Positions 31,545 through 33,154 of a stretch of DNA of 42,753 bases are shown here, piece after piece. Numbering within the stretch: the first letter of the stretch is position 1; each line of letters opens with the position of its first letter. Source of the stretch: Nitrososphaerota archaeon (GTDB lineage: Archaea > Thermoproteota > Nitrososphaeria_A > Caldarchaeales > JAVZCJ01); assembly GCA_038874475.1 (NCBI GenBank), contig JAVZCJ010000003.1, forward strand, positions 123,463-166,215. The letters are read 5' to 3'. The translations under genes and the position numbers were made by a program. Under the pieces are notes generated by a model. The model had not been told where the DNA came from, made no database searches, and saw nothing but the letters and a program-made list of their open reading frames with translations.

Positions 31545-31739
31545 TTTTTATAATCTCTTCATCTCATTATAACTGTCAAGAGTCATTCTATTTAATAATG
31601 TTTAAAATTCTTAAAGTGAAAGATAAAAAGTTTTCAAAAGTATTATAAGATATAGTATGTATCATTTTTTATTTTTCTGAAAAAAAGAGTAAAATCTTTA
31701 TTTACCTAATCAGTACTGACTATAATAAGAGTGATGAGT

Positions 31740-32748
31740 ATGTTTTTAATCCCTCCTTGGGAAATTAAAAGGGAGCTTTTAATAAGATTTGAAGCTACTA
31801 CTGATGAAAAATATGGGAAAAAACCTGAAGAAAGAAGCATTAATGAACTATTATCTTTAGGATTAATAAATCTTGATAAACCTAGAGGCCCTACAAGCCA
31901 TGATGTAACTGCAAATATTAGAAAAGTTTTAGAAAGAGAGCATATTGGTCAAGGCGGGACTCTAGAAAAATAGGAGAAATCCCGCTGTTTCAGGAGTATT
32001 ACCAATAATGCTTGAAGAAGCTACTAAATGCTCTAGAATATTTATGCATAGTGGAAAGCAATATGTTTGTTTAATGAGACTTCATGAAAAACGTTCAGAA
32101 GAAGAAATAAGAAATGCATTAAAGTTTTTTACAGGAGATATTTATCAAGTTCCTCCAATAAGAGCATCTGTAAGTAGGAGAGTTAGAATACGTACTATAT
32201 ATAAAGTTGAATTGCTTGAAATAGATGGAAAAGATGTTTTATTTATTATAGATTGTTCAGCTGGAACATATATTAGAAAATATTGTTACGATATAGGATT
32301 ATATTTAGGTTGTGGGGCTCATATGCAAGAATTACGTAGAACAAGAGTTGGATCATTAACTGAAGATGAAGCAGTAACTTTACCTGAAATTTATAAAGCT
32401 TATATAGAATGGAAAGAAAATAAAGAAGAAAAATACATTAGAGAAATTGTTAAACCTATAGAATATTCTTTAAAAATCATACCTAAAGTATATGTTCTTG
32501 ATTCAGCTGTTGATGCGATTTGTCATGGAGCAAGTGTAGCTGTAGGTGGAATTTCTATGCTTGAAAATAATATAAATAAAGGAGATATGGTTGCAATATT
32601 AACTTTAAAAGGAGAAATTATTGCTTTAGGAGATGCTCTTATGACATCTAATGAAATTCTTGAAAAAAATTCAGGTTTAGCTATAAAAACAAATAGAGTA
32701 ATAATGAAGCCAAATACTTATCCACGTTTATGGAAAAAGAAACATTAA
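31740..32748 (+). CDS. cbf5: tRNA/rRNA pseudouridine synthase Cbf5, split by a 13-nt intron
   Basis: Exon 1 is 31740-31965 and exon 2 is 31979-32748; spliced length is 331 residues. GTG at 31731 and ATG at 31734 are alternative starts. Without splicing, frame 1 hits TAG at 31971. Spliced, the catalytic motif reads GGTLDPAVSGVLPIMLEEATK, with Asp76 formed across the junction. Downstream are RASVSRRVRIRTIYKVELLEI, SAGTYIRKYCYDIG and a C-terminal PUA domain (about 245-331). Cbf5 is the catalytic subunit of H/ACA snoRNPs (with Nop10, Gar1 and L7Ae) and also acts on tRNA U55. GAGTGATG before the ATG is the ribosome-binding site. Confidence 0.92.
31966..31978 (+). other. 13-nt BHB intron in cbf5
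   Basis: Outer helix GCGGGA (31954-31959) pairs with TCCCGC (31980-31985). A 3-nt bulge AAA (31977-31979) follows on the 3' side. The 4-bp central helix is CTCT (31960-31963) with GGAG (31973-31976), including one G-U. The 5' bulge is AGA (31964-31966). No inner helix exists, so this is a relaxed hBH form. Cutting after the second base of each bulge removes AAAAATAGGAGAA and leaves CTA-GAT-CCC, the Leu-Asp-Pro of the catalytic motif. Confidence 0.88.
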
Positions 32749-32777: not shown

Positions 32778-32832
32778 TGATTTAATTAATAAAGCCGGGG
32801 TACCAAAGATTGGTTAATGGGCCAGCCTGGAG

Positions 32833-32844
32833 TAATTCTTAGTA
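32833..32844 (+). other. 12-nt intron at tRNA position 37/38
   Basis: The intron TAATTCTTAGTA sits at the canonical site one base 3' of the anticodon. BHB parts: outer helix is the anticodon stem. The 3' bulge TAA is 32843-32845. The central helix is CTGG (32827-32830) with TTAG (32839-32842), two pairs being G-U. The 5' bulge AGT is 32831-32833. The remaining AATTC forms a bare loop with no inner helix. Cleavage after the second bulge base on each side gives a 7-nt anticodon loop. Confidence 0.85.
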
Positions 32845-32878
32845 AGCTGGTGCTCCATTGTGAGCGCGTGGGTTCGAG

Positions 32879-32900
32879 GCCAAGTTATGCTTGGCGAAAT
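32879..32900 (+). other. 22-nt intron in the T-loop, position 59/60
   Basis: A complete bulge-helix-bulge: outer helix is the T stem; 3' bulge ATT (32899-32901); central helix TTCG (32873-32876) with CGAA (32895-32898); 5' bulge AGG (32877-32879); inner helix CCAAG (32880-32884) with CTTGG (32890-32894) and loop TTATG. Cutting after the second base of each bulge removes 22 nt and leaves a 7-nt T-loop TTCGAGT with U54, U55, C56 and A58 in place. Confidence 0.88.
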
Positions 32901-33154
32901 TCCCACCCCCGGCGCCAATTTTAAAGCTTAAAAAATTAATAGATATCATTAAGTATTCTATGGAGAATCAAATCGAAGATTCTACTTTAAATGTAATTTT
33001 AGCTTAATATACTAAAAATAAATTTCTTTTTATCATTATTCTTTTTCTTTTATCTTTAAACGTTACGATAAATGATTAAACGAATTTTGTCTTAAAATGA
33101 AACATTTTTTGTTTAATTATAAGTTATAATTCATAGAATTTCAAAAAAAGAGGT

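Follow-up and report, generated by a model that had tools for sequence, protein, structure and literature searches.

Archaeal tRNA genes can carry non-canonical introns of the bulge-helix-bulge (BHB) type, and position 59/60, in the T-loop, is one of their known sites (PMC4090602). For Thermoproteales, Fujishima et al. (2010), as cited in PMC4090602, described intron transposition among tRNA genes. BHB introns are also found outside tRNA genes, the cbf5 mRNA of Crenarchaeota being a case cited in PMC7714728.

The window analysed here, the whole stretch of 42,753 nucleotides, comes from an uncultured archaeon and contains a tRNA-Ser(GGA) gene interrupted at 37/38 and at 59/60, as the initial annotation had noted from the letters; this observation was confirmed. 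The gene resembles the systems of PMC4090602 in i) the 59/60 position, ii) the BHB geometry, iii) the co-occurrence of a 37/38 intron, and iv) an EndA encoded by two genes, but differs in belonging to Caldarchaeales rather than Thermoproteales and in sharing its T-loop intron with a second serine tRNA gene. This type of tRNA intron is already known, and the distinctive part is a T-loop intron identical in two serine tRNA genes.

Structure and detection of the tRNA-Ser(GGA) gene

The features of the locus are listed in Table 1. All stems of the tRNA are intact: acceptor GCCGGGG/CCCCGGC, D-stem CCA/TGG, anticodon stem CCAGC/GCTGG, variable arm GCTC/GAGC and T-stem GTGGG/CCCAC. The GGA anticodon, the long variable arm and the discriminator G73 identify it as a serine tRNA. 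Excision of the introns leaves the loops CTGGAGA and TTCGAGT, each of 7 nt, and both ARAGORN and the alignment with orthologs indicate that exact removal of the two yields a standard tRNA. The isotype originally proposed was borne out by the ARAGORN call on the spliced form and by intronless orthologs aligning without gaps, and the insertion sites, the lengths of 12 and 22 nt and the 7-nt loops also stood. The span had been given as 32794-32917; its start is correct, while the gene stops at 32914 and the remaining letters are the CCA that follows.

Table 1. Features of the tRNA-Ser(GGA) locus in the window
Feature	Position	Strand	Remarks
tRNA-Ser(GGA) gene, including discriminator G73	32794..32914	+	121 nt unspliced, 87 nt spliced
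37/38 intron, 12 nt, TAATTCTTAGTA	32833..32844	+	BHB geometry, shuffling; 11-nt counterpart in G001
59/60 T-loop intron, 22 nt, GCCAAGTTATGCTTGGCGAAAT	32879..32900	+	BHB geometry, shuffling; identical in Ser(TGA); 27-nt counterpart in G001
cbf5, archaeal pseudouridine synthase, TruB/dyskerin type	31731..32748	+	next gene upstream of tRNA-Ser(GGA); start codon provisional
cbf5 BHB intron, 13 nt, AAAAATAGGAGAA	31966..31978	+	excision restores frame ...GQGGTLDPAVSGVLP...

Without its intron mode, ARAGORN called the doubly spliced sequence tRNA-Ser(gga) and made no call on the unspliced gene or on either singly spliced form. In intron mode, the form from which only the T-loop intron had been removed was misread as Thr(ggt), with the 12-nt intron placed off register. 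It had been anticipated that ordinary finders would overlook the gene, and this proved right: given the whole unspliced window, ARAGORN and Rfam at the gathering score both reported no tRNA here, and Rfam at a relaxed E (up to 10) gave a chance match only.

BHB geometry and splicing endonuclease

By geometry, both introns have the BHB arrangement, a 4-bp central helix between two 3-nt bulges at the splice sites. At 37/38 the central helix is CTGG/TTAG, with bulges AGT and TAA; its two G-U pairs and the absence of an inner helix agree with the initial annotation. At 59/60 the central helix TTCG/CGAA lies between bulges AGG and ATT and is followed by an inner helix, CCAAG/CTTGG. When the 22-mer was shuffled, the central helix arose in 3.7% of the shuffles, and its combination with 5 or more inner pairs in 0.04%; for the 12-mer, the 37/38 central helix arose in 1.4%. 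A chance origin of this geometry is unlikely, strongly so for the T-loop intron and moderately so for the 37/38 intron. The comparative evidence given below, i.e. gap-free intronless orthologs and a congener with both introns, is stronger than these shuffling statistics. Nearest-neighbour folding of the isolated T-arm preferred a shifted inner helix (-18.2 kcal/mol) over the BHB form (-13.5 kcal/mol); since a gap at least as large was found for 20 of the 53 T-arms of the survey described below, themselves predictions, the gap is not unusual.

Two genes of the family PF01974 are present in each of two genomes of the genus. The first protein matches 3p1z_B, the catalytic subunit of Aeropyrum pernix, at E 1.8e-48 and retains a His that is Ala in 3ajv_B; the second lacks this His. 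Both 3p1z and 3ajv are structures of Aeropyrum pernix proteins. The genes for separate catalytic and non-catalytic subunits correspond to an EndA of the broad-specificity (alpha-beta)2 type, its assembly being predicted. Splicing endonucleases of this type cleave relaxed BHB motifs (PMC6379350). The heterotetrameric EndA of the same genome would thus be expected to cut both introns of pre-tRNA-Ser(GGA), after which a tRNA ligase would join the three exons into a standard tRNA-Ser with a long variable arm.

Orthologs and age of the introns

In the following, G000 is the source genome, G001 its congener, and f1 to f4 are families of the order. The Ser(GGA) gene of G001 is likewise interrupted at 37/38 and 59/60, its introns measuring 11 and 27 nt, with the BHB geometry intact. 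With the spliced form as query, five intronless Ser(GGA) orthologs aligned without gaps over both junctions. Among the Ser(GGA) loci read in other families, many are intronless, and an anticodon-loop intron occurs in several of those from f2 and f3; a T-loop intron of the G000/G001 kind was absent from every one of them. The gene cbf5 is a conserved neighbour that precedes Ser(GGA) in f1, f2 and f4 (13 loci), and its adjacency in f2 and f4 indicates that the Ser(GGA) genes there are orthologs in place. Given the intronless orthologs in other families, the most likely course is that both introns were gained in the genus or its family, which is sampled by two genomes only, after its split from the order's other families.

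If the introns were instead ancestral to the order and lost elsewhere, the T-loop intron in tRNA-Met of Pelearchaeum, of the same order, and the wide use of the T-loop site by introns in many other archaea would be in keeping; however, the intronless orthologs in f2, f3 and f4 would then require several independent losses of both introns, which makes this history improbable. It is less probable still that the gene is a decaying pseudogene with two insertions, the genuine Ser(GGA) lying elsewhere. The presence of two insertions in one gene and the failure of ordinary finders to call it are what such decay might produce, but every stem is intact and the BHB geometry at both sites is preserved in G001. 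Nor does a substitute appear in the source genome: four genes have GCCGGGG...CCCCGGC ends, namely Met, Ser(CGA), Ser(GGA) and Ser(TGA), none of the four at intronless spacing, and acceptor-end pattern searches of the assembly, which is 97.5% complete, found no intronless Ser(GGA) copy, although a copy with a different acceptor, or one outside the assembly, is conceivable.

The recent gain favoured here has a parallel in Caldiarchaeum subterraneum, which belongs to a related lineage. In that archaeon the tRNA-Thr(GGU) intron is heterogeneous, and the authors of PMC3293823 connected this with a mobile element. The likeness to our locus lies in the recent gain of a tRNA intron; the mobile element has been described for the Caldiarchaeum case.

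The T-loop intron common to Ser(GGA) and Ser(TGA)

Each of the two genomes has a single T-loop intron sequence in both Ser(GGA) and Ser(TGA), 22 nt long in G000 and 27 nt in G001; the two versions differ from one another. In G001, the variable arms of the two genes are identical as well. The window matches G001 C8 with 97.5% identity over 5.7 kb, the match ending at tRNA-Ser(GGA); the 94 bp 3' of the window gene, single-copy in the source genome, match the flank of the G001 Ser(TGA) gene instead. A search for the reciprocal exchange of 3' flanks between the two loci gave no such case.

Because recombination between the Ser(GGA) and Ser(TGA) genes explains both the identity within each species and the swapped 3' flank, the shared intron points to recombination between tRNA genes. 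Once gained, the T-loop intron was probably shared or homogenised between the two through their near-identical 3' parts. A separate insertion of the intron copy in each species, by transposition as proposed for Thermoproteales and without recombination of the flanking tRNA sequence, would rest on the same kind of evidence as was used there, near-identical introns in different tRNA genes (as cited in PMC4090602). The genomes studied here share with the Thermoproteales, as far as that citation describes them, such near-identical introns within one genome, but they combine identity within a species, difference between species and 3' flank exchange, a pattern that points to recombination of homologous tRNA parts. 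Recombination is the simpler fit to three observations: both species have the intron at one site and in one pair of genes, G001 has an identical variable arm, and the 3' flank was exchanged. Repeated transposition is rather unlikely, although the first copy of the T-loop intron could still stem from it.

Recombination may have a broader role. We tentatively propose, as a possibility somewhat short of even, that in this genus recombination among tRNA genes with a common acceptor and T-stem, i.e. Ser(GGA), Ser(TGA) and perhaps Met, both spreads T-loop introns and keeps them identical. The tRNA genes would then be recombination partners that take introns with them, and rearrangement breakpoints would be left 3' of these genes. 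The T-loop intron of tRNA-Met in G000 is a different one and is absent from tRNA-Met of G001.

Several further features of these genomes were observed. The stretch that contains tRNA-Ser(TGA) has opposite orientations in G000 and G001, one breakpoint of the inversion lying directly 3' of the tRNA, and inversions near this gene complicate comparison of the 3' flanks. In both genomes, Ser(TGA) apparently has two more insertions in the anticodon arm beside its T-loop intron, with approximate splice sites; in Ser(GCT), near tRNA-Met, the T-loop is interrupted by a long insertion that forms a strong inner hairpin and has a central helix deviating from the TTCR/YGAA rule; and Ser(CGA) has insertions in the D-loop and the anticodon loop and an uninterrupted T-loop.

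Distribution of T-loop introns

Named genomes were surveyed with a single pattern that selects tRNAs whose acceptor is CCCCGGC. It matched 104 stretches, 53 of which passed a test of the T-stem, the acceptor and the central helix that also required two or more inner pairs, a conservative count since the strict filter drops some likely real cases mismatched at the first inner pair. As a control, 80 titled rows were counted by title: 40 of 60 archaeal rows passed and none of 20 bacterial rows did. Titles that passed include Woesearchaeota, Micrarchaeota, Bathyarchaeota, Thaumarchaeota, Methanothrix, Nezhaarchaeota and several Asgard groups. Isotype calls by ARAGORN in open intron mode were ambiguous for the survey loci and were left out. 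A generic T-loop pattern run across the order gave mostly chance matches, a reversed control matching about as often, and only its matches with tRNA context were retained.

The source genome belongs to Caldarchaeales and not to Thermoproteales. In the same order, the locus of genome G010 is identical over 3034 bp to Candidatus Pelearchaeum maunauluense, placed by NCBI in Candidatus Caldarchaeales. T-loop introns had been described as uncommon and as known mainly from Thermoproteales-like genomes; this does not hold, as 59/60 is listed as a known site (PMC4090602) and the 53 survey loci are spread across many archaeal groups, by which a restriction to Thermoproteales-like genomes fails. The initial annotation mentioned neither the sharing of the T-loop intron with Ser(TGA) nor the cbf5 intron.

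The neighbouring cbf5 gene and its intron

The upstream gene is presumably cbf5, a name based on sequence resemblance. The match to cbf5 is broken after GTL in all 13 cbf5 loci read in f1, f2 and f4, and the cbf5 intron therefore looks old in the order, the adjacent tRNA introns looking recent. As far as PMC7714728 cites the crenarchaeal cbf5 mRNA intron, the two are alike in being BHB introns of the same gene, a likeness established at the level of the gene; unlike the crenarchaeal case as cited there, the present intron is only 13 nt long, has no inner helix and occurs in Caldarchaeales.

Implications

Taken together, we consider it very probable that the window encodes a functional, single-copy tRNA-Ser(GGA) with two BHB introns predicted to be spliced by EndA. 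These introns most likely were gained recently, and the T-loop intron was probably involved in recombination with Ser(TGA). An apparently single-copy serine tRNA is overlooked by common finders, and T-loop introns are spread more widely in archaea than the initial annotation assumed. The locus offers a clean example of tRNA introns that were probably gained recently, as the corresponding genomic position holds orthologs that lack them, and the sequences of the two species allow one to follow how tRNA genes come to share an intron.
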